DNA of 33,983 bases from an uncultured Gammaproteobacteria bacterium (GTDB lineage: Bacteria > Pseudomonadota > Gammaproteobacteria > PS1 > Pseudothioglobaceae), in assembly GCA_902512305.1 (NCBI GenBank), contig CABXIU010000013.1:1-33983 (forward strand), written 5' to 3'. The notes beneath the pieces are model-generated. The model saw nothing but the letters and a program-made list of their open reading frames with translations, was not told where the DNA came from and searched no databases. The position numbers were made by a program, and so were the translations under genes. Each line of letters starts with the position of its first letter. The stretch's first letter is position 1. Of this stretch, positions 2,098 through 27,931 are shown one piece after another.

Positions 2098-3395
2098 ATG
2101 AAGTTTGTTTTAAGAACCTAGGCAAAGAAAATCCAGCAAGTTTTACAACCTATGAGGCGAATGGTGGTTATCAAGTTTGGCGAAAAATTCTTAAAGGGGA
2201 ACTAACGCCCGATGAAATCATTGTAGAATTAAAGACCTCTGGATTAAGAGGTCGCGGTGGCGCTGGTTTTCCAACTGGTTTGAAGTGGAGTTTTATGCCT
2301 CGCAATCAGGAAGTACAGAAATACGTAGTTTGCAATTCAGATGAAGGGGAGCCTGGCACATGTCATGACCGTGATATTCTTAGATACAATCCCCACTCAG
2401 TCATTGAAGGAATGGCAATAGCTGGCTTTGTAATGAATGCAACAGTTGGATATAACTACATTCGCGGTGAATTTATGGAGCCTTATTATCGTTTTGAGGA
2501 GGCTTTGAAAGATGCATATAAAGCTGGCTTGCTTGGAAAAACTCTTCAGGGAAGCCCTATTTCATTTGATTTATACACGCATCTCGGAGCTGGAGCATAT
2601 ATCTGTGGTGAGGAGACAGCGCTGCTTGAATCTCTAGAAGGCAAAAAAGGCCAACCCAGATTTAAGCCGCCTTTCCCAGCTAATGTTGGATTATTTGGTA
2701 AGCCAACGACAATCAATAATACTGAGACCTTTGCTTCGGTTCCTGAAATCCTCTCAAGAGGCGGTCAATGGTTTGCTGATTTAGGTGTCGAGAATTCTGG
2801 TGGAACAAAATGTTTTTCAGTGACGGGCAGTGTCAAACATCCTGCAAATTTTGAAGTTCCTATGGGTACGCCCTTTTCTAAGTTGCTAGAATTAGCTGGA
2901 GGTTTGAAAGAAGGACGGACACTTAAAGCAGTTATACCTGGGGGTTCATCCACACCGGTTCTTACAGCAGAGACCGCAATGAATATGACTATGGACTATG
3001 ACAGCATAGCAAATGCAGGATCAATGCTAGGTGCGGGCTCAGTTATTGTTATGGATGATACAACTTGCATGGTTAAAACTCTAGCGCGTCTTGCACACTT
3101 TTATTATGACGAGTCATGTGGCCAGTGTACTCCTTGCAGAGAGGGTACGGGGTGGCTATACAGAATGCTTCAAAGAATTCTTGATGGAAATGGAAAAAAA
3201 GAAGACTTAGATCTACTCTTGTCTGTCAGTGAGAAAATTGAAGGAAATACAATCTGCGCTCTTGGCGATGCTGCAGCAGCTCCTGTTGTGAGCTTCATTA
3301 ATAATTTTAGAGACGAGTTTGAATACTATATTAAGAACGGTAAAAGCATTATAGAAGGGGAACATAATTTGATTGAGGAAGCGACAAGTGTCTGA
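2094..3395 (+). CDS. nuoF: NADH-quinone oxidoreductase subunit F (51-kDa)
   Basis: This is the NADH-oxidising subunit that binds FMN and cluster N3. Of 433 residues, the glycine-rich [13 protein letters not shown] (50-62) and [15 protein letters not shown] (80-94) form the nucleotide and flavin sites, followed by [19 protein letters not shown]. The [4Fe-4S] ligands are Cys342, Cys345 and Cys348 in [12 protein letters not shown], plus Cys388. Length is typical. Its last 8 bp overlap the GTG start of nuoG. Confidence 0.97.
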
Positions 3396-14856: not shown

Positions 14857-15993
14857 ATGAAAATAGTAATTGCACCTGATTCTTTCAAGGAAACGCTCTC
14901 AGCAATTGAAGCGGCATGTGCAATTGAGGCAGGTTTTCAAGAGGTTCTTCCTGAAGCAGAAATCATCAAGATACCAATCGCTGATGGTGGCGAAGGTACA
15001 GTAGATGCAATGGTATCAGCAACAAACGGTAGCTATGTCTATACAGAGGTCGAAGGACCTATGAGAGAGGTTGTAAATGCCAAGTGGGGTATGCTTGGTA
15101 GTTCAAAAACAGCAGTGATAGAGATTGCTGAAGCCTGTGGTTTGCACCTAGTATCTCCAGAGAAAAGAAATCCAATGATTGCTTCAAGTTTTGGAGTGGG
15201 TCAGCTTTTAATAGCCGCACTTGATAAAGGTGCACATCGCATCATCATTGGACTTGGCGGTAGCGCAACTAATGATGGAGGATACGGATTTTTAAGAGCT
15301 TTAGGAGTTCAGTTTATGGATTCTATGGGCAATGTGTTAAATGGTGATTTCGAAAACTTAAGTTTATTATCAGATATCAATCTCAGTCAAATGGATTCTC
15401 GAATAAAGAATGTCTCAATTGAAATTGCTTGTGATGTAGATAATCCATTACTCGGAAATCAAGGGGCTTCTGCGATTTTTGCAGCCCAAAAAGGAGCTAG
15501 TAAAAAAATGATTGTCCAGCTAGAGACCATTATGACTCATTACTCTGAAATCATTTCAAGGAAGTTCAATCATAATATTACAGATCAACCAGGAGCTGGC
15601 GCTGCAGGTGGTTTGGGCTACGCCATTTCTGTATTCATTAATTCGGCACTTAAAAGAGGGATTAATATTGTTCTTGAAACTTTAAACTTTAAACAATATT
15701 TGTTAGATGCTGAACTAGTTGTGACAGGCGAAGGTCGGATTGATAGTCAAAGCGAAAGGGGTAAGGCGCCAATAGGTGTCATAAATTATACGAAGAAATA
15801 TAACTGTAGAATTATTGTTATTGCAGGTTCAGTTGATGACCCAAAAACTTTTATAAAAAAATTCGGTGTTAATAATACGTATAGCATTGTCAATGATGAG
15901 CTTTCGATTAAAAAGGCTCTTGAAAATCCATATGAGAGCCTTAAGGCTGCTTCTAAAACAGCAGCAGAGGATTATAAGAATTCAGTATCCTAA
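14857..15993 (+). CDS. Glycerate 2-kinase (GlxK/GarK family)
   Basis: This 378-residue cytoplasmic kinase belongs to the glycerate kinase type 1 family, which phosphorylates D-glycerate, usually to 2-phosphoglycerate, feeding lower glycolysis. The whole N-terminal signature is present: APDSFKETLSA, then PIADGGEGTVDAM, then GLGGSATNDGG around residues 127-138, and GAGAAGGLGYA in the second domain. Length is normal. It ends 12 bp inside the oppositely oriented hydroxyacid dehydrogenase gene. With that neighbour it would make a route from glyoxylate- or hydroxypyruvate-type ketoacids to central metabolism, which is an inference from context. GlxK versus GarK cannot be decided from the sequence. 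Confidence 0.92.
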   Translation: MKIVIAPDSFKETLSAIEAACAIEAGFQEVLPEAEIIKIPIADGGEGTVDAMVSATNGSYVYTEVEGPMREVVNAKWGMLGSSKTAVIEIAEACGLHLVSPEKRNPMIASSFGVGQLLIAALDKGAHRIIIGLGGSATNDGGYGFLRALGVQFMDSMGNVLNGDFENLSLLSDINLSQMDSRIKNVSIEIACDVDNPLLGNQGASAIFAAQKGASKKMIVQLETIMTHYSEIISRKFNHNITDQPGAGAAGGLGYAISVFINSALKRGINIVLETLNFKQYLLDAELVVTGEGRIDSQSERGKAPIGVINYTKKYNCRIIVIAGSVDDPKTFIKKFGVNNTYSIVNDELSIKKALENPYESLKAASKTAAEDYKNSVS

Positions 15994-17010
15994 TTTAGGG
16001 TCAACTAGATTGTTAAGCTCATCATTCGCAATATATCTTTGCAGATTCATCAGCACCAACTCGAGTGTAAGAGGAATATAAGTATCTCCATCATCTGCAG
16101 AAATATGAGGCATAACCATCAGATTAGGTGTTCTCCATAGGATAGAGTTTGATGGGAGTGGCTCAGGATCAAAAACATCAATAATTGCCGCCTTGATATG
16201 TCCTGAGTTTAGGTTCTCAACGAGAGCATCATAGTCCATTGTGGCAGCTCTTCCGACATTAATGATTCCAACACCAGGCTTCATTAATGATTGACGTCTT
16301 TTATCTAAGAGGTTAAAAGTCTCCTTTGTATTGGGTATTGACATAAATATATAGTCAGCTTTGGGCAGAACTTCATCAAGTTTATCTTGATTAAACATTT
16401 GATCAACATCATCTAAGCTTTTTCCGTGACGACTAACACCGATAATGTTCATACCAAGTAGTTTGCATTTTTGGGCAACCGCGTAACCAATATTTCCAAC
16501 CCCAATAACAAGTAAAGTTTTACCCATGATTGGAGAAGAGTAAAGAGACTCCCAGTAATTATTTTTTTGATTTCCAATTATTTCAGGAATGTGGGTATGA
16601 AGCATTAAAACACTCATCAGGCCAAATTCTCCAGCTTTTGCTGAATGAACTCCTCGATTATTAACAACAGAGACGTTGTCAGGTGCCCAATCCATCGGAC
16701 ATAAATGCTCAACGCCAGCGCCAATAATATGAATCCATTTTAAATCAGGTGCTATTTCAGAGAGATTTTTTGTTGGAAAGTCCCAACAAACAAGAACCTC
16801 AGCTGTTTTCATGGATTCATAGAAGTTATCAAGGTCCCAATCAAAAACAGGATCAATCTTATCTTTTAAATCAGGATAACTTTCAACTGCTTTTTCATAT
16901 CTTTCTTTAGTGATTGCAAATACACTTTCCCCTTCAATTGTTGGAGGGAATGAATCTGGGTTTGCATGATTGCTCTTAAAGTGTACTCTAATTTTTTTAT
17001 GATTCACCAT
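15982..17010 (-). CDS. D-2-hydroxyacid dehydrogenase (hydroxypyruvate/glyoxylate reductase-like)
   Basis: This 342-residue oxidoreductase interconverts a 2-ketoacid and a D-2-hydroxyacid. The Rossmann motif is GVGNIG (170-175). The family catalytic residues are all present: Arg254 in NVGRA, Glu283 in FDPEPLP and His302 in MPHIS. After the second beta strand the chain reads GVSRHGKS, and the basic residues there suggest NADP(H) rather than NAD(H), as in GhrA-type reductases (inference). It starts 11 bp after Rieske A on the same strand, so the two probably form one transcript. The 3' end overlaps the convergent glycerate kinase by 12 bp. Glyoxylate, hydroxypyruvate or a pathway-specific ketoacid are all possible substrates. 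Confidence 0.85.
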   Translation of the reverse strand: MVNHKKIRVHFKSNHANPDSFPPTIEGESVFAITKERYEKAVESYPDLKDKIDPVFDWDLDNFYESMKTAEVLVCWDFPTKNLSEIAPDLKWIHIIGAGVEHLCPMDWAPDNVSVVNNRGVHSAKAGEFGLMSVLMLHTHIPEIIGNQKNNYWESLYSSPIMGKTLLVIGVGNIGYAVAQKCKLLGMNIIGVSRHGKSLDDVDQMFNQDKLDEVLPKADYIFMSIPNTKETFNLLDKRRQSLMKPGVGIINVGRAATMDYDALVENLNSGHIKAAIIDVFDPEPLPSNSILWRTPNLMVMPHISADDGDTYIPLTLELVLMNLQRYIANDELNNLVDPKLGY

Positions 17011-17021
17011 AGCATTTTGGT

Positions 17022-18395
17022 CTATGAATTCTCTCTTGACTGAATTTCTTTTAGTTTATTAGAAACAATTTCAATTCTTTCTTTTTCAGGTTTACCGTCA
17101 ACCTCAAACTGAATTTTAATGAATTCCTGAGCAAGTTTACTAAAGAAACTATCTTCATCTTTATCATTTTTCGGAATATTGATTACTGAGTCGCCTCCAT
17201 AAGTTGGTATTGGGGTTTCTTTAAAATCGGTAACTTTTATTGGCTCTTTTCCATCAGCTAAGCTTTTGATTTGCTCCCTTATTCTTTGACGCATCATTGC
17301 AACGCCTTGGTCACTTGCCAATAGATTTTCGTTTTTGTGAATATTGATTGGGCCCATTCCTTCGCATGCCTCTCTATCTGCTGGAAATCTTTGTCGCTCT
17401 TCATAAGGCCTATCAAATATCTCCCCCTGCTCTATAAGTTCAGGCCCTTCGGGAGTATTGTATTCAAGTGGATCGCCTCGATCGCCAAAATTAGCCCAGG
17501 CATAGCAGATTGTTGTTTCATCATCAATTGGAACTACCCATCTTGTGAATGAACTCCGGCCATAGAGTATTTGTTTGGTTCCATCAGCTTGAAATGCAGC
17601 TCCGGCTTGGGTAAAGTTTGGCAAAACAACTTCATTAATTCTAAACCAAACATTGTTTCCTACCCTTCTGGTATTGCATCCAAGAATCCAACTATCGCGT
17701 TCAACAAATTCGATTTGTCCAACTTCACCAAAGCCTTCAGAGAATTGTTGTCGACTCATGTTTGAGTGAAGAAATGAGGTGTGAATTGGATCAACTATTG
17801 CATCGAGTACCTGAAGCCAGTTGCAATCAAATGGTGCTTTGTAAGGGACCATTTCCATATCATCGAAATTGAGACTATCGTACATGGGGAACTCAGGTTT
17901 TTTTTCCTTAGGTCCTAGATAAGCAAATATAAGTCCTTTAAATTCATATGTTGGATATGCACCCAGCTGAACTTTTTCCTTGATAATTTCTTGAGTATGT
18001 TCTGACTGACCAGGGACTTCTAAAATTTTGCCATCCACATCAAAATGCCAACCGTGATAGCAGCAACTAATTCCAGTAGTTTGACAAATTCCAAACTCAA
18101 GAGAAGCTTGGCGATGTGGGCAGTGCTTGTGAACTAAACCTAGTTGTTTACTTTTATCACGAAATAAAACTAAATCTTCACCTAAAATTTTGATTGCTAC
18201 AGGCAGGTCATCAAGTTCAGATGATATAAAAATTGGATGCCAGTATCTTCGTAAGTACTCTCCGGCTTGAGTGCCTGGACCGATGCGAGTAATTTCCTCA
18301 TCTATTTCTTTGGAATGCTTTAATTCATAGCCTGAAAAGCCATTTAATTCAATCTCTATGTTGTTTTTATGATTATCCAAACCCCTAGACCTCAT
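17022..18395 (-). CDS. Rieske non-heme iron oxygenase, phthalate dioxygenase/LigXa-like alpha subunit (Rieske A)
   Basis: I start at ATG 18395 (457 residues); a TTG at 18422 would add nine residues. The N-terminal IGPGTQAGEYLRRYWHPIF is typical of the phthalate 4,5-dioxygenase/dehydrodivanillate demethylase branch. The Rieske [2Fe-2S] ligands are Cys92-x-His94 and Cys111-x2-His114. The mononuclear iron site shows Asp202-x2-His205-x4-His210 in a DPIHTSFLH segment, so it keeps the usual bridging aspartate. The C-terminal half has the LigXa-type LLASDQGVAMMRQRIREQI. Members act as ring hydroxylases or O-/N-demethylases and need a separate reductase, which is not encoded nearby. It leads an operon with the hydroxyacid dehydrogenase and diverges from Rieske B. 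Substrate unknown. Confidence 0.88.
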   Translation of the reverse strand: MRSRGLDNHKNNIEIELNGFSGYELKHSKEIDEEITRIGPGTQAGEYLRRYWHPIFISSELDDLPVAIKILGEDLVLFRDKSKQLGLVHKHCPHRQASLEFGICQTTGISCCYHGWHFDVDGKILEVPGQSEHTQEIIKEKVQLGAYPTYEFKGLIFAYLGPKEKKPEFPMYDSLNFDDMEMVPYKAPFDCNWLQVLDAIVDPIHTSFLHSNMSRQQFSEGFGEVGQIEFVERDSWILGCNTRRVGNNVWFRINEVVLPNFTQAGAAFQADGTKQILYGRSSFTRWVVPIDDETTICYAWANFGDRGDPLEYNTPEGPELIEQGEIFDRPYEERQRFPADREACEGMGPINIHKNENLLASDQGVAMMRQRIREQIKSLADGKEPIKVTDFKETPIPTYGGDSVINIPKNDKDEDSFFSKLAQEFIKIQFEVDGKPEKERIEIVSNKLKEIQSRENS

Positions 18396-18557
18396 TAATA
18401 AATATGAATTTTTACTGCACAAATAATACCAAATATATTTACATATTAATTAATTTTTAAGTAAAAAATGACTGTATTAGTAATTTATTGTTAAGTATTT
18501 ACTTAATAAGTAATAATTAGGTCTATAATCTCATATCTAAAATATTTAAATTAAAAC
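18396..18557. promoter_or_regulatory. Divergent promoter region between the two Rieske operons
   Basis: This 162-bp, very AT-rich gap must hold promoters for both directions. For the + strand gene a perfect TATAAT lies at 18524-18529, 28 bp before the ATG, with a poor -35 (ACTTAA, 18501-18506, 17-bp spacer), which suggests activator dependence. For the - strand gene only a weak TATTAT at 18423-18428 is visible. The hexamer TAAGTA occurs at 18458, 18492 and 18507, and its reverse complement at 18500. There is no recognisable ribosome binding site before ATG 18558. Confidence 0.6.
18491..18506. promoter_or_regulatory. Candidate operator palindrome TTAAGTA-TT-TACTTAA
   Basis: Two perfect 7-bp arms are separated by 2 bp. 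A further TAAGTA half-site follows directly at 18507-18512 and another lies at 18458-18463. The palindrome covers the -35 position relative to the TATAAT at 18524. This is the expected place for a local transcription factor, and the Lrp/AsnC gene in the downstream operon is the natural candidate (inference). Confidence 0.5.
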
Positions 18558-19658
18558 ATGGATACATCAATTATTAAAAATAATTTGTCTTCATTTAATG
18601 AAAAGAATGATTTGAAACATGGACTTCCTAGTTCGGCCTACACTAGTGAAGAGTTTTTTAATGCTGAGTGTGAAACTGTTTTCTCAAACAATTGGGTATT
18701 TGCTGGTTTTGTTCATGAATTTAATGAGCCTGGAGATGCGATACCTATAACTATTGGTGGGCAACCTATTGTGCTCATTAAAAATTCTAATGGGGAAATA
18801 AACGCGTTTCATAATGTCTGCTCCCATCGTTGTTTAAAGCTAGTAGATGAGCCCTGCAATGTTGGTCCTATGCTTTCATGCCCCTATCATTCATGGACTT
18901 ATAATTTAGATGGGGATCTTTGCGCCACCCCTTTTTTTGGAGGAAGTGAACATCAACCTGAAGGTTTTGATATATCTAAACATGGATTACATTCGGTAAA
19001 AATAGCAATCTGGAATGATTGGATATTTATTAATTTAAATGATGAAGGCCAGGATTTTGAAGAGTATGCAAAGCCCTTAATTAGCAATTTTAAAGATATA
19101 GATTTTCAAAAAGTGACCCCAGTAGCAACCTTAGATTTTGGAAAAATCGCAACGAATTGGAAATTTTTAATGGAAAACTTTATTGAGCCCTACCATGTTC
19201 AGTTTGTTCATAGGACAACTACAAGCCAGCCACTCGAAGATCATTACACAATAGTCGATGGCGTTTGTGTAGGCAGTGCAATTGATTTAGATGAGAGTGA
19301 TCAGGTTGAGGGTAGTCTTTCGGTTAGTTCAAGATACCTGACATTATTTCCTAATTTTATTATTGGTAGGTATTTTCCTGACCAGATTGGAGTTTATTTA
19401 AATGTGCCAGTTGATTCGGGGCATACTCTTCAAAAGAGGGTTATTTATACAACTGATGGGAAAGTTATTTCTGAAAAAAGTCTAGATGAAATTAAGAAAT
19501 TGTGGTGGGATGTTCATAAGGAAGACCATGCAATTTGCGAAAGAATGCAGCTTGGAAGATTATCTTCAGTTTCTAAAGATGGAGGATTGCTCTCTCCTTA
19601 CTGGGAGGATAGCGTGAGAGCATTTCAGCAAATGATTGTAGATTCTGTTACAAAATAA
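18558..19658 (+). CDS. Rieske non-heme iron oxygenase, glycine betaine/carnitine oxygenase-like alpha subunit (Rieske B)
   Basis: This 366-residue oxygenase has the Rieske ligands Cys88-x-His90 (CSHRC) and Cys108-x2-His111 (CPYHSW) and the iron site in MENFIEPYHVQFVH, with His213 and His218. The residue three before His213, normally the bridging aspartate between the two metal centres, is Glu210. A bridging glutamate is known from carnitine oxygenase CntA and related quaternary-amine oxygenases such as GbcA, which release an amine or formaldehyde. By that analogy this enzyme probably attacks an N-methyl or N-alkyl carbon (inference). No ferredoxin reductase subunit is encoded in the window. 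It is the first gene of the long + strand operon; the start lacks a clear ribosome binding site. Confidence 0.87.
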   Translation: MDTSIIKNNLSSFNEKNDLKHGLPSSAYTSEEFFNAECETVFSNNWVFAGFVHEFNEPGDAIPITIGGQPIVLIKNSNGEINAFHNVCSHRCLKLVDEPCNVGPMLSCPYHSWTYNLDGDLCATPFFGGSEHQPEGFDISKHGLHSVKIAIWNDWIFINLNDEGQDFEEYAKPLISNFKDIDFQKVTPVATLDFGKIATNWKFLMENFIEPYHVQFVHRTTTSQPLEDHYTIVDGVCVGSAIDLDESDQVEGSLSVSSRYLTLFPNFIIGRYFPDQIGVYLNVPVDSGHTLQKRVIYTTDGKVISEKSLDEIKKLWWDVHKEDHAICERMQLGRLSSVSKDGGLLSPYWEDSVRAFQQMIVDSVTK

Positions 19659-19679
19659 AATAATTAATGAGGAGTAATT

Positions 19680-20105
19680 ATGACAAATGAAAATTTTAAT
19701 AGTGAGTATAGATTAGCACACACAATGATGAGAGTGCTTGATTTAGATAAATCAATCAAATTTTATTGTGACATATTAGGGATGCACGTTTTAAGAAAAA
19801 CTGATTACCCAGGAGGGCGCTATACAAATGCTTTTGTTGGTTATGGCCCAGAAAGAGAATTTCCAGCATTAGAGTTAACTCATAACTGGGATCAGGAGGT
19901 GCATTATGACAAGGGTAATGGCTGGGGTCATATTTGTATAGAGACTCCAGATGTATATAAAGCAGTTGAAGATCTAGAGGCTAGTGGTGCCAAAATAATA
20001 AGTCCAGCTAAACCAATGAATGCAGGAACACGAATACTTGCCTTTATAGAGGATCCTGATGGCTATGTTGTTGAATTAAATGAAAAACTTGAATTAACTG
20101 AATAA
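19680..20105 (+). CDS. Glyoxalase I-like VOC protein (GloA family)
   Basis: This 141-residue protein is close to bacterial lactoylglutathione lyase along its whole length: HTMMRVLDLDKSIKFY, LGM-x-VLRKT, AFVGYGPE, ALELTHNW, GWGHICIE and AFIEDPDGY. All four expected metal ligands are present: His14, Glu65, His84 and Glu132. Glyoxalase I isomerises the glutathione hemithioacetal of methylglyoxal. Its place two genes into an oxygenase operon suggests either detoxification of a reactive aldehyde made by the pathway or a VOC lyase/isomerase with a new substrate. AGGAG lies 8 bp upstream of the ATG. Confidence 0.82.
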   Translation: MTNENFNSEYRLAHTMMRVLDLDKSIKFYCDILGMHVLRKTDYPGGRYTNAFVGYGPEREFPALELTHNWDQEVHYDKGNGWGHICIETPDVYKAVEDLEASGAKIISPAKPMNAGTRILAFIEDPDGYVVELNEKLELTE

Positions 20106-20111
20106 GGAAAA

Positions 20112-20516
20112 ATGATGAAAGACAATAAACCAAAATTATATAAATTTAGTGAAATTGAGCATCGCCTCCATACTCTTGAACCAGGTAAAAGTTACATTAA
20201 GCCTTTTGTCACTAGTGCAGTCAGCGATACAATGTGTGGCGGACTTAATTTTTTGAATGAAGTATCTGTTCCATGGGAGTTAACATGCGATGAGATTATT
20301 TACTGTATGGAAGGAACATTTAGATTAACTTGTGACGGTGTTGCCTATGAATGCAATCCGGGAGACGTTCTATATATACCAAAGGACAATTCAATTGCTT
20401 ATGAATGTGATGAAAAGTGCATTATTTTTTATGCGGCTTATCCTCATGATTGGAAACAACAAGCAGGTATTACATTTGTTCCTGGGATAGATCCAGAAGA
20501 TATGCCACAAAACTAG
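20112..20516 (+). CDS. EutQ-like cupin-domain protein, cysteine-rich
   Basis: This 134-residue protein is a single cupin resembling the C-terminal domain of the ethanolamine-utilisation protein EutQ: CDEIIYCMEGTFRLTCDG, then CNPGDVLYIPKDNSIAYEC. The classical His-x-His of cupin motif 1 is replaced by Cys59-Asp60-Glu61. Seven cysteines (42, 59, 65, 74, 81, 99, 103) are concentrated in the barrel, which is unusual for a cytosolic cupin. No signal peptide is present. It lies 6 bp after the glyoxalase gene and 9 bp before the regulator, so it is part of the operon. Starts at 20112 and 20115 are both possible. Role unknown. Confidence 0.75.
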   Translation: MMKDNKPKLYKFSEIEHRLHTLEPGKSYIKPFVTSAVSDTMCGGLNFLNEVSVPWELTCDEIIYCMEGTFRLTCDGVAYECNPGDVLYIPKDNSIAYECDEKCIIFYAAYPHDWKQQAGITFVPGIDPEDMPQN

Positions 20517-20525
20517 AGTAATAGT

Positions 20526-21074
20526 ATGAGTAACTCAAGCAGTCGATTAATAAATTTAAATCAAAATAATGATACGAATCACGATTCGAACTCTCGTTTG
20601 CCAACAAGGGATACCCTTAAAGATAAATTAAATCAACAAATCATTGATTTGCTTGAGTTGGATGGGAGATTGCCTTTCAAAGAGATTTCGAATGCTCTTG
20701 ATATCTCAGAGGGCACAGTTAGAAATCGAGTGAACCGTATGAAAGATGCTGGAGTTTTGCAAATCAAAGCACTCGTTGATCGATCAGCAATAAACTATTC
20801 AACTGATTCCATGTTAGGCATCAAGGTTGCATCCAGTTCAAGCCCTAGTAGTGTTGCTAAAAGGCTAGAGAGTTGCAATGAAATAGTATTTATTATGTGG
20901 GTTACTGGTCGATATGACTTACTAGTAGAGATTGCTTCAGAGAGTGACGATACATTAAGTAATTTTCTTGAAGATCATTGTTTTAATAATGATGATATAA
21001 AGGATGTTGAGGTTATGAAAGGTCTATCGACATTTAAAAATCAGTTTTTGTTAAAGTCTCAAGAGAAAATTTGA
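20526..21074 (+). CDS. Lrp/AsnC-family transcriptional regulator
   Basis: This 182-residue protein has an AsnC-type helix-turn-helix at about 35-80 (LLELDGRLPFKEIS and ISEGTVRNRVNRM) and an effector-binding RAM domain at about 97-175 with VTGRYDLLVEI. Family members sense amino acids or related ligands and commonly regulate neighbouring or divergent operons. The first 30 residues are a polar, Asn/Ser-rich extension not usual for the family; a shorter start is not supported by any internal ATG before the winged helix. It sits inside the operon it probably controls, and the palindrome at 18491 is a candidate site. AGAG before the ATG is weak. Confidence 0.88.
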   Translation: MSNSSSRLINLNQNNDTNHDSNSRLPTRDTLKDKLNQQIIDLLELDGRLPFKEISNALDISEGTVRNRVNRMKDAGVLQIKALVDRSAINYSTDSMLGIKVASSSSPSSVAKRLESCNEIVFIMWVTGRYDLLVEIASESDDTLSNFLEDHCFNNDDIKDVEVMKGLSTFKNQFLLKSQEKI

Positions 21075-21104
21075 TATTAATTTGAAAAAATAGAAGGAGA
21101 AAAA

Positions 21105-22523
21105 ATGAGTAAGATTTACCATACAAAAATGGCAGACGCGCTTCCCTCAAAAAAGCGTGTTGCGCAAGAAAAAGCAAGGCTGGAAAAAGCAGGCATTAAA
21201 TATATTCTCTCTTGTTGGATTGATATGCTTGGACTTCCTAAAACTAAGCCAATCCCTTTTGCTGAGTTTGAAGCCTTATGTGCAGGAAAAGGCCCACAAT
21301 TTGCAGTTCATTCGGTTTCATTTGTACCTGAACTCGGACCTAATGATTCCGATCAAATCCCTGTCCCCGATCTAGATAGCTTAATGATATGTCCTTGGGA
21401 TAAGACATGTGTATGGGTTTTTTCTGACCTATGGTGGGAGGGCGAGCCATACAATTTATGTCCTCGACAGACCCTTAAAAGAGCAATTCAAAATGCTGAC
21501 GATGCTGGCTATAAGGCTTATTGTGGAATTGAGCCAGAGTTTATTGCAATGCGTTATGAAAATGGACAGCCTGTAAAAGCGGTTGATGATGACCCATTGC
21601 CAGGAGAAGGACTACGCCCTAGAAGACAGGCTTTTGGGTATGACGTTGAGTACTCAATAGATTCAATGGAGTTCCTTAAAGAATTAATCGACACCATCAA
21701 TGAGTTAGGTTGGGAAATGAAGGATGTTGTGGCTGAGGGCGCTTATTCACAATTTGAATTAGACTTTACTTATACTGATGTTCTACAAATGGCAGATCGA
21801 CTAGTATTCTTAAGAGTATTACTTAAAGAGGTAGCAAAAAAATATGGAATGTTCATCACATTTATGCCAAAGCCAACGATTGGAGACTGGAGATCTGGAG
21901 CACATATTAATTTTAGTATGACCAGTAATAAAGACAATAAAAATATCTTTGAAGGAAAGGGTGGTAAGTTCTCTGAGCAGGCTTATCATGCAGTTGGAGG
22001 GCTCATTAAACATGGCACATCAATTACCGCAATAGCCTGTTCAACGGTTAATTCATACAATGGACTTGTTCCAATTGTGGGCGGATTTGAAGGTGGAGTC
22101 TATACATGGGCTCCGACAACAATGGGCTATGGCGATAACAACCGTTCGTGTATGCTTAGACTTCCTCAAAATCGATTTTGTATAGAAAACCGTGCTGCAG
22201 ATATGTGCATGAATCCATACTTATCGCTTGCAATGACAACTGCTTCAGTTATTGATGGAATGAAAAATAAGATTGATCCAGGCAAGCCTTTGAATATCAA
22301 TTTATATGCTTTAAGTCCTGAAGAGATGGAGGCTTCAAATATCAAATCATTACCTCGTAATCTTTTAGAGGCTATTGAGGCATTAAATGAAGATGATTTT
22401 GCAAGAGAAGTGTTGGGTGATTCAATGCTTCTTCAATTTTTCTCATACAAGAAAGATGAGTGGGATCGATATCATCAAGCGGTTACTGACTGGGAAGTTC
22501 AGGAGTTTTTAAGGCTCTATTAA
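21105..22523 (+). CDS. Divergent glutamine synthetase-fold ligase (GS1)
   Basis: This 472-residue protein is a full-length member of the GlnA/GlnT superfamily, cytoplasmic, with AAGGAG upstream. Metal and ATP-site regions remain recognisable: Glu143 and Glu145 in GIEPEF, Glu211 and Glu218 near AEGAYSQFELDF, His267 in GAHINFS, Arg347 and Arg352 in NNRSCMLRLP, and Glu361-x-Arg363. The canonical NSYKR, whose arginine contacts glutamate in true glutamine synthetase, reads NSYNG (316-320). It is therefore unlikely to be an ordinary glutamine synthetase. A gamma-glutamyl-amine ligase, like the aniline, isopropylamine or putrescine ligases of this superfamily, or a ligase for a different acid, are the main options. 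It lies 30 bp after the regulator and 101 bp before mgsA. Confidence 0.82.
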   Translation: MSKIYHTKMADALPSKKRVAQEKARLEKAGIKYILSCWIDMLGLPKTKPIPFAEFEALCAGKGPQFAVHSVSFVPELGPNDSDQIPVPDLDSLMICPWDKTCVWVFSDLWWEGEPYNLCPRQTLKRAIQNADDAGYKAYCGIEPEFIAMRYENGQPVKAVDDDPLPGEGLRPRRQAFGYDVEYSIDSMEFLKELIDTINELGWEMKDVVAEGAYSQFELDFTYTDVLQMADRLVFLRVLLKEVAKKYGMFITFMPKPTIGDWRSGAHINFSMTSNKDNKNIFEGKGGKFSEQAYHAVGGLIKHGTSITAIACSTVNSYNGLVPIVGGFEGGVYTWAPTTMGYGDNNRSCMLRLPQNRFCIENRAADMCMNPYLSLAMTTASVIDGMKNKIDPGKPLNINLYALSPEEMEASNIKSLPRNLLEAIEALNEDDFAREVLGDSMLLQFFSYKKDEWDRYHQAVTDWEVQEFLRLY

Positions 22524-22578
22524 ATATTAAAATCATTACCAAAAAAGTAGTTCGTTTTTAATTTAGACTATCATTTTT

Positions 22579-22598
22579 TTGAGTTAATTTTAATTCAA
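22579..22598. promoter_or_regulatory. Inverted repeat in the GS1-mgsA gap
   Basis: TTGAGTTAA and TTAATTCAA are 9-bp arms with one mismatch (a G-U pair in RNA) and a 2-bp centre. They lie in the 101-bp gap between GS1 and mgsA, 27 bp before the mgsA ATG. The T-run that follows starts 7 bp later, so this is not a standard terminator. It could be an operator for an internal promoter or an mRNA hairpin that sets expression of the second half of the operon. Confidence 0.35.
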
Positions 22599-22624
22599 AG
22601 ATTACTTTTTTATTTGGAGTAAAT

Positions 22625-23518
22625 ATGTGTGGAATTGTTGGACTTTTTATTAAGAATTCTAAGCTTGAATCTCAACTGGGTGCTTTAGTTGCTCCAATGT
22701 TAAGTGAGATGACTGAGCGTGGACCTGATAGTGCTGGTATGGCTGTGTATCGAGATCCAAACGAAAGAGGTTGTAAAATTACAGTACTTGCTCAGCAGGT
22801 GGATTTTGATTGGGCAAATTTTGAAAAATCGGTGAGCACTAATTTATCTGTTAATAAATTTTTTGTTAATCAGAATCACGCAGTACTTTCATTGGGCTCA
22901 TCCATAAATGAAGTTGAAGATTGGCTCCAGTCAAATTGGGCTGAGTTAAGTGTTACGAGTGCAGGAAGTAATATTGAAATCTTTAAAGGGAAAGGTAATC
23001 CTTCTGACTTTATTGAACAATTTGATATTAAAAGTATGACTGGAACTCATGCTCTAGGGCATACTCGTATGGCAACAGAGAGCGCTATTACAACTGAGCA
23101 TTCGCATCCATTTTCTACGGGGCAAGATTTATGCTTGGTGCATAATGGTTCATTGTCAAATCATAATCGTCTTCGTGAAAAACTAAGACGTGTAGGAGTT
23201 CAATTTAAAACAGATAACGACAGCGAGGTTGCTGCTGGTTATTTGAGCTGGCGTTTAAGTGAAGGCGATGATTTGGATGAAGCGTTGAATCATGCTATAG
23301 AAGATTTAGATGGATTTTATACTTTTGCCATTGGAACTAAAGATGGTTTCGCTGTTATGAGAGATCCGATTGGATGTAAGCCAGCAATTATGGCAGAGAC
23401 TGATGATTGGGCAGCAATGTCCTCAGAGTATCGTGCAATTGCGACTCTGCCAGGGGCTGAAAATGCACGCATTTGGGAGCCAGAACCAACCCAAATTTAT
23501 AGTTGGAAAAGGAGTTAA
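22625..23518 (+). CDS. mgsA: N-methylglutamate synthase subunit A-like class II glutamine amidotransferase
   Basis: This 297-residue protein begins MCGIVGLF, giving the catalytic Cys2 after methionine removal, followed by ERGPDSAGMA, GHTRMATES (145-153), LVHNGSLSNHN and DNDSEVAAGY. These are the glutamine-binding elements of the PurF/GltB amidotransferase family. MgsA/GlxB proteins are free-standing versions that work with GXGXG and FMN subunits. In N-methylglutamate synthase the amino-group donor is methylamine or gamma-glutamylmethylamide, so this domain may cleave a gamma-glutamyl amide. GGAG precedes the ATG. It opens a tight three-gene set; the last two genes encode the partner subunits. 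Confidence 0.87.
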   Translation: MCGIVGLFIKNSKLESQLGALVAPMLSEMTERGPDSAGMAVYRDPNERGCKITVLAQQVDFDWANFEKSVSTNLSVNKFFVNQNHAVLSLGSSINEVEDWLQSNWAELSVTSAGSNIEIFKGKGNPSDFIEQFDIKSMTGTHALGHTRMATESAITTEHSHPFSTGQDLCLVHNGSLSNHNRLREKLRRVGVQFKTDNDSEVAAGYLSWRLSEGDDLDEALNHAIEDLDGFYTFAIGTKDGFAVMRDPIGCKPAIMAETDDWAAMSSEYRAIATLPGAENARIWEPEPTQIYSWKRS

Positions 23519-23520
23519 AT

Positions 23521-24195
23521 ATGACAACAATAGATTTGAAAAAGAATACTATTCGAGAGCTCAATGAAAAATTACAAGGCAGCTCGCCTGGTAAGAAATT
23601 CATTGTTAATAATACTGTTGGTAAACATGCTCTTTCTGTCGGACTTACCAAGGAGATTGATGTGGAGATTAATGGCCATGTTGGTTATTACTGCGCAGGT
23701 ATGAATCAAGAGGCGTCTATAAAAATTAATGGAAATGCTGGTCCAGGCTTGGCAGAAAATATGATGTCTGGTGAAGTTCGTGTTACTGGTAACGCTTCTC
23801 AATATGCGGGCGCTACTGCCCATGGAGGATTGTTGATTATTGAGGGGGATGCGAGTTCACGTTGTGGCATTTCAATGAAAGGAATGAACATTGTTGTTGG
23901 CGGTAATATTGGCCATATGAGTGCATTTATGGCTCAGTCAGGAAACCTAGTGGTGTGTGGCGATGCTGGTGACGCAATGGGAGATTCTATTTACGAGACA
24001 AAGATCTTTGTTCGAGGAAAAGTCAAAAGCCTAGGAACGGATTGTGTTGAAAAAGAAATGAAAAAAGAACATAAGGATGAGTTGGGAAAGCTTTTAGAAA
24101 TGGCAAAAATGAATTACAGTGTAGATGAATTTCGTCGGTATGGATCAGCACGCAAGTTATATAATTTTGATATCGATCAAGTCGATGACTATTAA
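23521..24195 (+). CDS. mgsB: N-methylglutamate synthase subunit B-like GXGXG protein
   Basis: I start at ATG 23521 (224 residues), supported by AGGAG at 23509-23513, rather than at an in-frame TTG 18 bp earlier. The protein is a GXGXG right-handed beta-helix like the C-terminal domain of glutamate synthase: repeated turns such as INGHVGYYCAGM, INGNAGPGLAENM, VTGNASQYAGA, IEGDASSRCG and VVGGNIGHM. The C-terminal 50 residues are helical (VDEFRRYGSARKLYNF). In MgsABC and GlxBCD complexes this subunit bridges the amidotransferase and FMN subunits. It starts 2 bp after mgsA stops. Confidence 0.87.
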   Translation: MTTIDLKKNTIRELNEKLQGSSPGKKFIVNNTVGKHALSVGLTKEIDVEINGHVGYYCAGMNQEASIKINGNAGPGLAENMMSGEVRVTGNASQYAGATAHGGLLIIEGDASSRCGISMKGMNIVVGGNIGHMSAFMAQSGNLVVCGDAGDAMGDSIYETKIFVRGKVKSLGTDCVEKEMKKEHKDELGKLLEMAKMNYSVDEFRRYGSARKLYNFDIDQVDDY

Positions 24196-24207
24196 GGAGA
24201 AAGATTT

Positions 24208-25530
24208 ATGAGTAAAGACAATCCAACATTAATTGAGTCAGCGACTTTTCCTCGACATGTCATTGCTGAAATTCAACGTGCAGCAAAAACAGGCATTTAT
24301 GATATCCGTGGTTTTGGTGCAAAAAGAGAAATACCTACCTTTGATGATTTGGTTTTTTTAGGCGCGTCGACTTCACGTTATCCTCTAGAAGGTTATAGAG
24401 AAAAGTGCACGACTGAAGTCATTCTTGGAAATCGATTTGCAAAAAAGCCAATTCATTTGAAGACTCCAATAACGATTGCAGGTATGAGTTTTGGGTCACT
24501 CTCAGCTCAGGCTAAAGAGTCCTTAGGGCGTGGCGCAACACTTGCGGGAACAAGCACAACAACAGGAGATGGGGGAATGACTTCTGAAGAGAGAGGGCAT
24601 TCTAAAACTCTTGTCTATCAGTACCTTCCTTCTAGATATGGAATGAATCCTGATGACTTAAGAAGAGCAGATGCAATTGAGATTGTTCTTGGGCAAGGTG
24701 CAAAGCCAGGAGGCGGAGGAATGCTTTTAGGTCAAAAGATTTCCCCAAGGGTTGCGCAAATGAGAAATCTACCTGAAGGAATTGATCAGCGTTCAGCCTG
24801 TAGACATCCAGATTGGACCGGTCCTGATGACCTGGAGATAAAAATTCAAGAACTCAGAGAAATCACTAATTGGGAGAAACCAATTTACGTCAAAGTTGGC
24901 GCTACCCGTGTATTTTATGATGTCACACTTGCGGTTAAGGCAGGAGCTGATGTTGTTGTCGTTGATGGAATGCAAGGTGGCACTGCGGCTACTCAAGATG
25001 TATTTATTGAGCATGTAGGGATTCCAACATTGCCAGCGGTTAGAATGGCCGTAGAGGCATTGCATGAAATGGATATGCATCGCAAAGTTCAATTGATAGT
25101 TTCTGGGGGTATTAGAAGTGGCGCTGATGTCGCAAAAGCTCTTGCGCTTGGAGCTGATGCTGTTGCTATTGGAACAGCCGCATTAATAGCTTTAGGCGAT
25201 CAAAGTCCTGAGTTTGATGAAGATTATAAAGCTATTGGATCTGCCGCTGGGTTTTGGGATGACTATCAACAGGGTAATGATCCTGCTGGAATAACCACTC
25301 AAGATCCTGATTTGGCAAAGCGCCTAGATCCTAAATTGGGAGGTCGTCGCTTGGCTAATTATCTCAATGTTTTGACTCTAGAGCTACAAACTTTAGCAAG
25401 AGCTTGTGGCAAAAGTCATGTGCATAATCTTGAACCAGAAGATATGGTAGCATTAACTATGGAGGCTGCAGCAATGGCAGGTGTGCCTTTGGCTGGCACT
25501 GAGTGGATTCCTGGAAAAAATGGAGTTTAA
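24208..25530 (+). CDS. mgsC: N-methylglutamate synthase subunit C-like FMN-binding glutamate synthase domain protein
   Basis: This 440-residue TIM-barrel subunit is homologous to the synthase domain of GltB. ITIAGMSFGSLSAQAKESLG, the GDGGMTSEER region, GAKPGGGGMLLG, YVKVGA, VVDGMQGGTAATQ and VSGGIRSGADVAKALALGA form the FMN site. The C-terminal KSHVHNLEPEDMVALTMEAA is characteristic of MgsC/GlxD. At the position where GltB carries cysteines for a 3Fe-4S cluster the chain reads DQSPEFDEDY onward to NDPAGITTQD, with none. Only three scattered cysteines occur in the whole protein, so it is probably an FMN-only enzyme. In the known pathway it makes N-methylglutamate from methylamine-derived nitrogen and a glutamate-family acceptor. 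AAGGAG precedes the ATG. Confidence 0.88.
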   Translation: MSKDNPTLIESATFPRHVIAEIQRAAKTGIYDIRGFGAKREIPTFDDLVFLGASTSRYPLEGYREKCTTEVILGNRFAKKPIHLKTPITIAGMSFGSLSAQAKESLGRGATLAGTSTTTGDGGMTSEERGHSKTLVYQYLPSRYGMNPDDLRRADAIEIVLGQGAKPGGGGMLLGQKISPRVAQMRNLPEGIDQRSACRHPDWTGPDDLEIKIQELREITNWEKPIYVKVGATRVFYDVTLAVKAGADVVVVDGMQGGTAATQDVFIEHVGIPTLPAVRMAVEALHEMDMHRKVQLIVSGGIRSGADVAKALALGADAVAIGTAALIALGDQSPEFDEDYKAIGSAAGFWDDYQQGNDPAGITTQDPDLAKRLDPKLGGRRLANYLNVLTLELQTLARACGKSHVHNLEPEDMVALTMEAAAMAGVPLAGTEWIPGKNGV

Positions 25531-25570
25531 ATAGGTTTTAATTTTTGAGACTATAAAGATAGGAGTATTT

Positions 25571-26884
25571 ATGGCAACTAAACTTAGTAAAGTAGCTAAA
25601 GAAAAAGGGATTGAGTATTTTCTAATAAGTTTCGTAGATTTATTTGGTAGTTTGCGTTCAAAATTGGTTCCAACTAGAGCCATTGATGACATGCAACAAG
25701 AAGGCGCTGGTTTTGCTGGTTTTGCTGCATGGCTTGATATGACTCCTGCACATCCAGATATGTTCGCTATTCCAGATCCAGATAGTTTGATTCAATTACC
25801 ATGGAAGCCCGAAGTAGGTTGGTTAGCATCTGATTTATGGATGGATGGCAAACCTGTTGAGGCTTCACCGAGAGTTGCATTAAAGAGACAGCTGGAAGAA
25901 GCAGAAAGGCTTGGTTATCGTATGAAGACTGGTGTTGAATGCGAATACCACTTAATTAATGATGATGGAACAGATATTGCAGATGAGAAAGATCAACAAA
26001 GCAAGCCTTGTTATGATCAGCAGGCATTAATGCGTCAATATCCAGTGATTAAGCAAATTTGCGATAGTATGATTGAATTGGGTTGGGGTCCCTATCAGAA
26101 TGATCACGAGGATGCTAATGGCCAATTTGAAATGAACTGGGATTTTGATGATGCACTGACTACTGCGGATCGACAGGTGTTTTTTAAATTTATGGTGAAA
26201 TCGATTGCAGAACTCCATGGGATGCGCGCAACATTTATGCCGAAGCCTTTTACTCATCTAACGGGCAATGGCTGCCACTCCCACCTCTCTATCTGGAGTC
26301 TTGATGGAACTAAAAACTTATTTAATGGTGATAATGATAAAAGAGGTTTGGGATTATCTTCTTTAGCTTATCAATTTTTAGGTGGTATTATGCATAGTGC
26401 TGATAGATTAACAGCAATTTTTAATCCAGCTATTAATAGTTATAAGCGTATTAATGCCCCAAGAACTTTGTCTGGCGCAACATGGTCGCCAAGCTCAATT
26501 ACTTATGGAGGTAACAATCGAACTCATATGATTAGGGTTCCTGACTCTGGAAGATTTGAATTAAGGTTAATGGACGGTGCAGCGAATGCCTATCTTATGC
26601 AAGCTGCTATTCTCGCATGTGGTTTAGATGGTATAGCTGCAAATCGAGACCCTGGTGATCCACTTGATATCAATATGTATGAACTTGGTAAAGATATTGA
26701 GGGCTATAAACAGCTTCCAAAAAACTTGCTAGATGCCTTAAGGCTTCTTGAGGAAAGTGATGTTTTGAGAGAAAGACTTGGTGATAACTTGATTGATGCT
26801 TACATTAAGCTCAAACAAAATCAATGGAATGATTATTCATCGCACTTAAGTCAGTGGGAGCGAGATAATACTCTAGACTGCTAG
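25571..26884 (+). CDS. gmaS: Gamma-glutamylmethylamide synthetase / type III glutamine synthetase-like ligase (GS2)
   Basis: This 437-residue glutamine synthetase-fold ligase has an intact active-site set: Glu123 and Glu125 in GVECEYH, Glu187 in NGQFEMNW, His236 and His238 in GCHSHLS, NSYKR at 289-293, Arg317 and Arg322 in NNRTHMIRVP, and Glu330-x-Arg332 in FELRLMDG. GmaS of indirect methylamine pathways and Rhizobium GlnT share this size and motif pattern and cannot be separated by eye; the mgsABC neighbourhood favours GmaS, which ligates methylamine to glutamate using ATP. The gene follows mgsC by 40 bp with AGGAG before the ATG. It could accept a different primary amine. Confidence refers to the family; the substrate is less sure. 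Confidence 0.82.
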   Translation: MATKLSKVAKEKGIEYFLISFVDLFGSLRSKLVPTRAIDDMQQEGAGFAGFAAWLDMTPAHPDMFAIPDPDSLIQLPWKPEVGWLASDLWMDGKPVEASPRVALKRQLEEAERLGYRMKTGVECEYHLINDDGTDIADEKDQQSKPCYDQQALMRQYPVIKQICDSMIELGWGPYQNDHEDANGQFEMNWDFDDALTTADRQVFFKFMVKSIAELHGMRATFMPKPFTHLTGNGCHSHLSIWSLDGTKNLFNGDNDKRGLGLSSLAYQFLGGIMHSADRLTAIFNPAINSYKRINAPRTLSGATWSPSSITYGGNNRTHMIRVPDSGRFELRLMDGAANAYLMQAAILACGLDGIAANRDPGDPLDINMYELGKDIEGYKQLPKNLLDALRLLEESDVLRERLGDNLIDAYIKLKQNQWNDYSSHLSQWERDNTLDC

Positions 26885-26920
26885 TAAAACAAGTGCCGTT
26901 TAGATAAATAAGATGCTGAA

Positions 26921-27931
26921 ATGGACTACGATAAATTTGAATTAGGCGATGTTTCTCTTCTCTCTGGAGAGGTTTTAAAATCAGCATTCTTGGCATATAA
27001 AACTTATGGCAAATTAGATGCTAGTAAAAGTAATGTGGTTGTCTTGCCTACTTTTTATACCGGTTCACATCAAAGAAATGAGGGTTTTTTTGGACCTGGG
27101 AGGGCTATAGATCCAAGTAAACACTTTGTTGTTTCTATTAACATGTTTGGAAACGGATTTTCATCCTCTCCGAGTAATGCAGAGGCTCCTCAAGATGGCC
27201 CTAGGTTTCCTGATATTTTATTGTGGGATAATATTGCTTGTCAATATCGACTTCTGGTTGAAGAGTTAGGTGTTAAAAAAATTGCACTTGTTGCCGGGTG
27301 GTCGATGGCTGGCTGTCAGGCCTATCAATGGGCTGCACAATATCCTGATTTTGTTGAAGCTATTTTGCCATTCTGCGCCTCTGCAAAAACATCAAAACAT
27401 AACTTTGTATTTCTTGAGGGAGTTAGAGCTGCGCTATGTGCAGATCAGAATTGGAACAATGGTGATTACACCTCTCCTCCAGTCGATGGACTCAAAGCTT
27501 TTGCAAGGGTGTACGCAGGATGGGCATTTTCACAAACTTTTTATCGAGACTCGTTATATAAAACAATTGGTTATGAGTCCTTAGAGGATTTATTAATTGA
27601 TTGGGAAGAAGACCATGCTGAAAATTGGGATGCCAACAACCTTTTATGTAAGCTGAAGACATGGCAGGCTAGTGATATCAGTATTGGCCCACTTTATAAT
27701 GGAAATTTCGAGAAGGCATTAAAATCAATTAAGGCTAAATCTATATTAATACCTTGCACACAGGATTTATATTTTCCTCCTGAAGATAATGCTATTGAGG
27801 CTAGTTATATGAATCACGCTGAATTTCGACCCTTCGATTCGCCATGGGGCCACTGTGCTGCAAACCCTGGCAATGATTCAGAGTTTACAGCAGCCTTGGA
27901 AGAAGGCTTAAGGGATCTTCTTGAAGAATAA
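26921..27931 (+). CDS. MetX-fold alpha/beta hydrolase (homoserine acetyltransferase-like)
   Basis: This 336-residue cytoplasmic protein has the alpha/beta-hydrolase fold of homoserine O-acetyltransferases. The triad is visible as Ser128 in GWSMAG, Asp282 in CTQDLYFPP and His311 in WGHCA. NVVVLPTFYTGSH and ADQNWNNGDY correspond to MetX blocks, but it lacks the usual GGSMGG spelling, so it may hydrolyse or transfer acyl groups from another substrate. It begins 36 bp after gmaS and 14 bp before csaA, so it could be the last enzyme of the amine operon. Cleaving a pathway ester or amide is a possible role, but nothing in the sequence fixes it. The ribosome binding site is weak. Confidence 0.78.
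   Translation: MDYDKFELGDVSLLSGEVLKSAFLAYKTYGKLDASKSNVVVLPTFYTGSHQRNEGFFGPGRAIDPSKHFVVSINMFGNGFSSSPSNAEAPQDGPRFPDILLWDNIACQYRLLVEELGVKKIALVAGWSMAGCQAYQWAAQYPDFVEAILPFCASAKTSKHNFVFLEGVRAALCADQNWNNGDYTSPPVDGLKAFARVYAGWAFSQTFYRDSLYKTIGYESLEDLLIDWEEDHAENWDANNLLCKLKTWQASDISIGPLYNGNFEKALKSIKAKSILIPCTQDLYFPPEDNAIEASYMNHAEFRPFDSPWGHCAANPGNDSEFTAALEEGLRDLLEE

Follow-up and report, generated by a model that had tools for sequence, protein, structure and literature searches.

Methylated nitrogen compounds make up a large part of the labile organic nitrogen in the sea, where relatives of Candidatus Thioglobus are abundant. Several described systems resemble parts of the locus discussed here. A glxBCD-glnT-soxBDAG cluster of SAR11 has been proposed as a methylamine route (PMC3160333). 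The carnitine monooxygenase CntA, a group V Rieske oxygenase, binds quaternary ammonium through a cation-pi contact at Y203 and uses E205 in electron transfer (PMC7948474). In the glutamylating GoaS enzymes Asp50 is lost, and Glu357 is the residue named for the Glu-flap glutamate; systems for aniline and 1-naphthylamine combine a ligase of this sort with a Rieske oxygenase (PMC11335346). Genes that recall each of these lie together in an island at positions 15982-27931 of contig CABXIU010000013.1 (assembly GCA_902512305.1), from an uncultured marine gammaproteobacterium of the Pseudothioglobaceae, a relative of sulfur oxidisers, that we infer to belong to the Candidatus Thioglobus/SUP05 group. 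The window is this whole stretch of 33,983 nucleotides, contig C13 of an assembly of 1.48 Mb that is 89.6% complete. The reading favoured here, tentatively and with less than even confidence, is that of a catabolic island for a methylated, likely quaternary, nitrogen compound, from which methylamine would be channelled by GmaS and GlxBCD into N-methylglutamate. No paper recognisable as describing the combination of a group V Rieske oxygenase, a phthalate-type Rieske oxygenase, an altered ligase, a MetX-like hydrolase and GmaS appeared among the open-licence literature listed, as judged on titles and the beginnings of abstracts, and the island looks like an undescribed route for using a methylated nitrogen compound.

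The island comprises two divergent gene groups. The longer runs on the plus strand and opens with Rieske B, an oxygenase of the group V (quaternary ammonium) type (18558-19658; PF00355, PF00848). It is followed by a glyoxalase I of the lactoylglutathione lyase family (19680-20105; TIGR00068, 140 bits, cut-off 120), an EutQ-type cupin (20112-20516; PF06249, 62 bits) and an Lrp/AsnC-family regulator (20526-21074; PF13404, PF01037). Next comes GS1, a ligase of the glutamine synthetase fold that forms a separate subfamily (21105-22523; PF00120, 300 bits; TIGR03105, 368 bits, below the cut-off of 470). The methylamine module consists of glxB/mgsA, encoding a class II glutamine amidotransferase subunit (22625-23518; PF13522), glxC/mgsB for the GXGXG subunit (23503-24195; PF01493), glxD/mgsC for a flavin mononucleotide (FMN) glutamate-synthase-type subunit (24208-25530; PF01645, 308 bits), and gmaS/glnT, a homologue of gamma-glutamylmethylamide synthetase genes (25571-26884; TIGR03105, 670 bits, cut-off 470). 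A MetX-like alpha/beta hydrolase, the partner of GS1 and mostly conserved with it, closes the run (26921-27931; NF005757, 434 bits, cut-off 332; PF00561). Gaps from Rieske B to the hydrolase range from -16 to 101 bases. On the minus strand lie Rieske A, a phthalate-dioxygenase-like oxygenase (LigXa_C) with a bridging Asp (17022-18422; PF00355, PF19301), and its partner, a D-2-hydroxyacid dehydrogenase (15982-17010; PF02826, 162 bits). An initial annotation, made from the sequence alone, had described a one-directional run with short gaps, divergent from Rieske A and the dehydrogenase. Its gene list omitted the hydrolase; all the genes that it did name are open frames with the family matches given, and the layout stands.

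The gene order is not a product of chance, because it recurs in relatives. Rieske B was sought in 29 genomes of the genus and 54 other genomes of the order, and the presence of GS1 and gmaS was scored at E 1e-100. Rieske B (at least 69% identity) occurs in 23 of the 29 genus genomes and in one of the 54 others (G048). GS1 is found in 23/29 and gmaS in 22/29 genus genomes, each in single copy; both are present in 21, neither in five and one alone in three. In these last three (GS1 only in G018 and G021, gmaS only in G032) the gene lies at or near a contig end. The two genes share a contig in 20 of the 21 genomes that have both, and in the remaining one, G024, both stand at contig ends. Their co-occurrence gives a Fisher p of 0.001, with related genomes that are not independent and incomplete ones counted. 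Two of the five genomes free of both genes, G005 and G012, are 91% complete and constitute the solid absences. Seven close loci have no glxBCD and keep gmaS between GS1 and the hydrolase; gmaS, not glxBCD, is therefore the fixed part. One of them, on contig C29 of G013 (3281-3433; L068/L088), retains between GS1 and gmaS a stretch of 51 residues, 84% identical to the end of GlxD, that looks like a decayed copy. Within the genus the island includes GmaS as an integral part, whether GlxBCD is present or not.

A wider set of 85 loci was gathered by GS1. It holds the best 80 of 87 relatives from a scan of genome contigs, the window, two complete relatives and two Rhodobacterales plasmid loci, and divides into 24 close loci (23 from the genus and L091, on a contig of G048 from a sister genus) and 61 outside loci, with gene families taken from mechanical clustering. 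Conserved pairs recur throughout. The hydroxyacid dehydrogenase accompanies Rieske A in 19/20 close and 20/20 outside loci. Rieske B is paired with the glyoxalase, and often the cupin: the glyoxalase is present in 18/29 outside loci with Rieske B, and the two genes adjoin on the same strand in 42 places. GS1 is paired with the hydrolase, which is present in 21/24 close loci. The Lrp regulator completes this core. One branch of the genus (L092, L093, L096) shows no Lrp gene in the island, and here Rieske B, glyoxalase and cupin lie beyond a glycerate kinase gene (L092, L093) or further off (L096).

Rieske B resembles the quaternary-ammonium oxygenases in its residue pattern and predicted fold. 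An alignment profile searched against PDB matches CntA best, at full length and in one piece, unlike Stc2 and 3n0q. In a single-sequence search salicylate 5-hydroxylase and other ring hydroxylases outscore CntA, over the first ~200 residues; CntA aligns over 15-333. The predicted model has a confidence (predicted local distance difference test, pLDDT) of 88, and its nearest folds are those of group V: CntA chains take the first 13 ranks. Next come 3vca, 3n0q (titled as a putative aromatic-ring dioxygenase) and stachydrine demethylase (4qup, 4qur), with salicylate hydroxylase at rank 18. The group Va combination of a bridging Glu and an aromatic residue is present. In the 51 of 53 alignment rows that match the pattern (two do not), the place of CntA E205 is always Glu (Glu210 in the window) and that of Y203 is Phe in 46 and Tyr in 5 (Phe208 in the window). 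The likeness of Rieske B to CntA makes a methylated nitrogen compound the most probable class of substrate. The initial annotation had proposed a methylated or aromatic nitrogen compound; the first alternative is retained, with homarine, trigonelline and betaines as candidates, and a mainly aromatic role for Rieske B is rejected on the CntA-led fold and profile matches. Rieske B was also rejected as GbcA proper, reaching 143 of the 670 bits needed. The nearest PDB sequence to Rieske A is 7fhr, a putative phthalate 4,5-dioxygenase, and Asp occupies the bridging place in each of the 39 rows, out of 43, that fit the pattern.

The methylamine module belongs to a type already described (PMC3160333, PMC5520151). 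Both the GmaS-type synthetase and the MgsABC/GlxBCD subunits of the N-methylglutamate pathway are present, and GmaS matches PDB 7cql, an entry titled GmaS, at 631 bits. GlxB of the window is 51% identical to Rhizobium GlxB and 55% to Sphingobium GlxB; GlxD is 79-82% identical to the GlxD of glnT-linked modules of Rhizobium, a P. aeruginosa plasmid and Sphingobium. No match to PF11927, which we take to be the dimethylamine monooxygenase family, turned up in the genome, which is 89.6% complete, so that formation of methylamine from trimethylamine N-oxide (TMAO) by that route is not evident. No match to soxB/mgdA, and hence no mgdABCD beside gmaS-mgsABC, was found on contig C13. A lack of mgdABCD-like genes in the organism as a whole is rejected, since the search of the genome that the initial annotation had suggested finds two SoxB matches above the threshold of the family, one on contig C3 and one on C16, each within a soxBDAG-like run read from open reading frames (ORFs), of which SoxB and SoxA were the subunits compared. 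The absence of mgdABCD reported earlier accordingly appears to be local. That annotation had also held that co-regulated mgdABCD elsewhere in the genome, together with a lack of conserved linkage between the Rieske genes and mgsABC-gmaS in relatives, would speak against its island; mgd-like genes are indeed elsewhere, and the linkage is conserved in the genus.

The best MgdA candidate, by sequence, appears to be the SoxB on C3, because it is 72% identical to SoxB of a Sphingobium purU-folD-glxBCD-glnT plasmid cluster and 69% to Rhizobium SoxB, against 53% and 55% for the SoxB on C16. With the C3 run lie genes for a TMAO demethylase that scores above its cut-off and for a GbcA-like Rieske protein. 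The same stretch has a second glutamine synthetase and a second mgsABC, whose C subunit is ~50% identical to window GlxD, and folD and a glycine-betaine-type transporter, both assigned by eye. This stretch (L050:10708-15803 and L016:998-17938) is probably a main methylated-amine locus of the genus. Among the 29 genus genomes, C16-type SoxB occurs in at least 26, C3-type MgsC in 26 (one partial) and window-type GlxD in 16 (one partial).

From the observed gene links, family assignments and residue patterns we infer a sequence of reactions. (i) Rieske B would oxidise a carbon adjacent to a quaternary or N-methyl nitrogen, splitting the C-N bond as CntA does and yielding a carbonyl fragment and methylamine. 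Electrons would most likely come from a GbcB-like reductase on C16 (347 bits, below the cut-off of 500), since no other reductase in the genome matches the GbcB model strongly (two others reach 25 and 23); a search for Rieske reductases had likewise been suggested by the initial annotation, and it supplied this candidate. (ii) GmaS would convert methylamine to gamma-glutamylmethylamide. (iii) GlxBCD, or the MgsABC encoded on C3, would turn this into N-methylglutamate. (iv) A SoxBDAG/MgdABCD-type enzyme encoded on C3 would then release glutamate and a one-carbon unit for the nearby FolD. (v) The carbonyl or 2-oxoaldehyde fragment would be handled by the glyoxalase, a hydrolase and the D-2-hydroxyacid dehydrogenase. 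(vi) GS1 would form an ATP-dependent amide with an organic amine, later split by the hydrolase. On a Methylibium petroleiphilum plasmid a 40% relative, given with Rieske A, precedes a VanB-type reductase.

GS1 departs from ordinary synthetases at several places, counted in 79 rows longer than 440 residues. Apart from Asp50, the residue roles and numbering used here, including that of Arg321 in the glutamate site, are those we take to hold for glutamine synthetases. The metal and phosphate residues checked are kept. The Asp50 place of the ammonium site is Ala in 79/79, as expected of a GoaS-like enzyme; Asn264 is replaced by Trp and Arg321 by Gly, again in every row, so the Arg321-type glutamate site of GoaS is not kept. 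The residue after the Trp is an invariant Arg (40/40 rows), where the solved synthetases shown have Gly. Glu is present in 79/79 at what is presumably E327, beside an insertion, and in 79/79 at the place labelled E357. With Asp50 and Arg321 lost, ammonia is an unlikely substrate of GS1, and its binding of glutamate may depart from the usual mode. The predicted model (pLDDT 75; pocket loops 255-264 and 313-337 below 50) finds a mix of glutamine synthetases and GmaS as its best fold matches. GS1 was rejected as an ordinary or type III glutamine synthetase, as it falls below the cut-off of all five curated models matched and lacks both residues. The putrescine pathway as a whole was rejected too: the PuuA-type model gives 185 of 650 bits, and no island gene matches the PuuB, PuuC or PuuD families. 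A bolder proposal, which we think unlikely, is that GS1 represents a new class of ligase with this fold, one that uses neither ammonia nor glutamate conventionally and has gained the invariant Trp-Arg pair in its substrate loop, which would act with the hydrolase and two Rieske oxygenases by activating a betaine-like carboxylate, a pathway design unknown so far, spread among marine Proteobacteria and SAR324.

Outside close relatives the core consists of GS1, the hydrolase and Rieske A or B, and the methylamine module is an add-on. The hydrolase is found in 49/61 outside loci and Rieske A or B in 44/61 (both in five). Many contigs are short; in the 28 outside loci where GS1 is flanked on each side by over 6 kb, the hydrolase occurs in 20 and Rieske A or B in 22, with both in five. 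The scan required exact short peptides, so Rhodobacterales carriers would tend to escape it: ADMCMNPY is present in 82 of 85 GS1 rows and absent from both Rhodobacterales rows. GS1 at 60-80% identity occurs in three of 72,556 plasmid records, all from Rhodobacterales and at about 62%. Rhodobacterales GS1 searched against 299 phylum genomes at E 1e-110 matched the window's own genome only; the core is thus rare. PhyH-type proteins neighbour 11 outside loci. A TauD-type protein in three has TmpA and gamma-butyrobetaine dioxygenase as its nearest relatives, below cut-off. An Alisedimentitalea plasmid has guanidino and polyamine genes beside the core, which indicate no firm substrate, and sulfonate-type binding proteins on the two plasmids fall well short of the score required (68 and 74 of 163.5 bits). 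Agmatinase-like proteins lie near Rieske genes at L018:12554-13552 and L051:32264-33253; both score below the agmatinase cut-offs, and the one in the window's own genome is 57% identical to the other, encoded near GS1 on the Alisedimentitalea plasmid. At L147, L148 and L151 another gene family stands beside the GS1-hydrolase pair, its L151 member being an O-acetylhomoserine sulfhydrylase.

A number of observations weigh against the proposed conversion of a quaternary amine to N-methylglutamate. Rieske B, ~22% identical to CntA in the fold alignment, has Pro and Val in place of the Cys pair found in CntA and Stc2 (0/51 with Cys), a pair reported as unique to some group V enzymes (PMC10952381). 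The SoxBDAG encoded on C3 may act on sarcosine, as sequence alone does not separate this substrate from N-methylglutamate, and C3-type SoxB occurs in at least 20 of the 29 genus genomes (one partial). Of 14 control genomes only one matches PF11927, and that this family represents the enzyme is our assumption. Three of the five absences of GS1 and gmaS are weak: G014 is 57% complete, and in G025 and G029 a fragment of Rieske A or B stands at the end of a contig, where the island may simply be truncated. Outside the close relatives, gamma-aminobutyrate (GABA) transaminase lies near 9/61 loci and succinate semialdehyde dehydrogenase (SSADH) near 8/61, each over its family cut-off in the member tested, and these neighbours could point to other amines. 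Moreover, glxBCD or gmaS is near GS1 in only one of the 61 outside loci (L100, from SAR324), one of the 28 longer ones. In L091, from the sister genus, Rieske B, glyoxalase, cupin, Lrp regulator and GS1 are present and the hydrolase follows GS1 directly, without gmaS or glxBCD. Methylamine release is therefore not a needed part of the core chemistry. The linkage of Rieske genes to mgsABC-gmaS that the initial annotation proposed is real within the genus, which supports its catabolic island there, and is nearly absent beyond close relatives.

The same distribution would fit an ordinary methylamine operon, glxBCD-gmaS, inserted between GS1 and the hydrolase, with the Rieske core serving an unrelated compound. 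The high identity of GlxD to that of Rhizobium and Sphingobium clusters, which have no Rieske genes in the stretch shown, agrees with such an insertion, as do the seven close loci that keep glnT without glxBCD, one with a GlxD remnant. Yet gmaS occurs once each in 22/29 genus genomes, on the contig of GS1 in 20/21, and its place between GS1 and the hydrolase is unchanged even in loci with relocated Rieske genes (L092-L096). L100 from SAR324 has both sets; glxB, glxD and glnT there are short pieces beside the Rieske and GS1 genes, on the strand opposite GS1, and represent broken genes or sequencing errors. We consider an unrelated insertion doubtful. Aniline-type logic is likewise unlikely, in our estimate: GS1 would glutamylate a primary amine, the Rieske enzymes would oxidise the gamma-glutamyl amide, the hydrolase, standing in for the amidotransferase-like AtdA2 or PuuD, would split it, and GmaS/GlxBCD would recycle small amines. 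GS1 and the hydrolase form the commonest adjacent pair (44 places), and GS1 combines the loss of the ammonium-site Asp with kept metal and phosphate residues, as in GoaS, the kind of ligase that aniline and 1-naphthylamine systems join to a Rieske oxygenase (PMC11335346). GABA transaminase and SSADH genes flank some loci, and the E. coli puu operon likewise pairs a glutamine synthetase-like ligase with GABA transaminase. However, the Arg kept by GlnA, PuuA, GmaS and GlnT is lost from GS1, which makes glutamate uncertain as its substrate; no Rieske beta subunit is found among island ORFs of at least 90 residues with a Pfam match, the amidotransferase present is GlxB, and Rieske B looks like CntA. 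The distant parallel to aniline pathways drawn by the initial annotation thus stands for a ligase without the ammonium Asp beside Rieske oxygenases, and fails for the two-component alpha-beta oxygenase. Finally, the core of Rieske B, glyoxalase, cupin, GS1, hydrolase and Lrp regulator could be the homarine operon homABCDER in a new host. This operon was reportedly described in 2026; its name presumably denotes five enzymes and one regulator, which would fit this set. We know of no homarine step that needs a ligase of the glutamine synthetase fold, and a Rhodobacterales-type GS1 in one of 299 phylum genomes is rarer than expected of a widespread operon. On the other side, N-methylglutamate genes lie within the island, one of the two Rhodobacterales plasmid records examined, among the three with GS1, names Anadara broughtonii as its source, and a homarine pathway and a role for Mgd in it have been reported, as cited in PMC13390433; the excerpt of PMC12817926 deals with homarine uptake, not with genes. 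We regard the homarine operon as improbable.

Further features adjoin or overlap the island. A glycerate kinase gene on the plus strand (14857-15993; TIGR00045, 467 bits, cut-off 168) is convergent with the hydroxyacid dehydrogenase gene, overlapping it by 12 bases (window 15982-15993); the two adjoin in 15 loci. The kinase is present in 16/24 close and 0/61 outside loci, and it may or may not belong to the island. Between Rieske A and Rieske B, a divergent promoter gap of 135 bases (18423-18557; no strand assigned) contains inverted repeats. Aligned over 15 loci with the divergent pair, it shows conserved TTACATA and TA(T/A)GTAA-like arms and a TATAAT; the arms are a possible Lrp operator. 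A promoter and terminator scan of the window found 32 and 7 sites, no more than in shuffled sequence (means of 41.3 and 8.3). G+C content gives no clear island signature, at 0.348-0.404 over 15001-27000 and 0.336-0.404 over the whole window.

If the favoured reading is true, the island is a route from a quaternary amine to N-methylglutamate in these bacteria. It could explain the source of methylamine where no dimethylamine monooxygenase is evident. Rieske B and GS1 would serve as marker genes for following that flux, and GS1 would widen the known functions of the glutamine synthetase fold.

Compared with indirect methylamine oxidation (gmaS, mgsABC, mgdABCD; e.g. Ruegeria pomeroyi) and the SAR11 glxBCD-glnT-soxBDAG cluster, the island shares gmaS and glxBCD/mgsABC, and the host likewise has soxBDAG/mgd-like genes and folD, elsewhere in its genome. 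It differs in that the module is embedded in a Rieske/GS1 island with no mgd in the window, and in that part of the genus has gmaS without glxBCD. The rhizobial glxA-glxBCD-glnT cluster with soxBDAG and purU shares the glxBCD-glnT order and 79% GlxD identity; sox and purU are adjacent there, not in the window, and the stretch shown has no Rieske genes. With the group V oxygenases (CntA, GbcA, Stc2), Rieske B shares the bridging Glu and the cation-pi aromatic residue, CntA being its best fold and profile match, whereas the Cys pair is missing, identity to CntA is ~22% and the GbcA family model gives 143 of 670 bits. With the aniline and 1-naphthylamine systems (atdA1-A5, npaA1-A5), GS1 shares the loss of the ammonium Asp and the adjacency to Rieske oxygenases. 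Here, in contrast, the Rieske types are different, a MetX-like hydrolase takes the place of an AtdA2-like partner, and the glutamate site of GS1 is altered.

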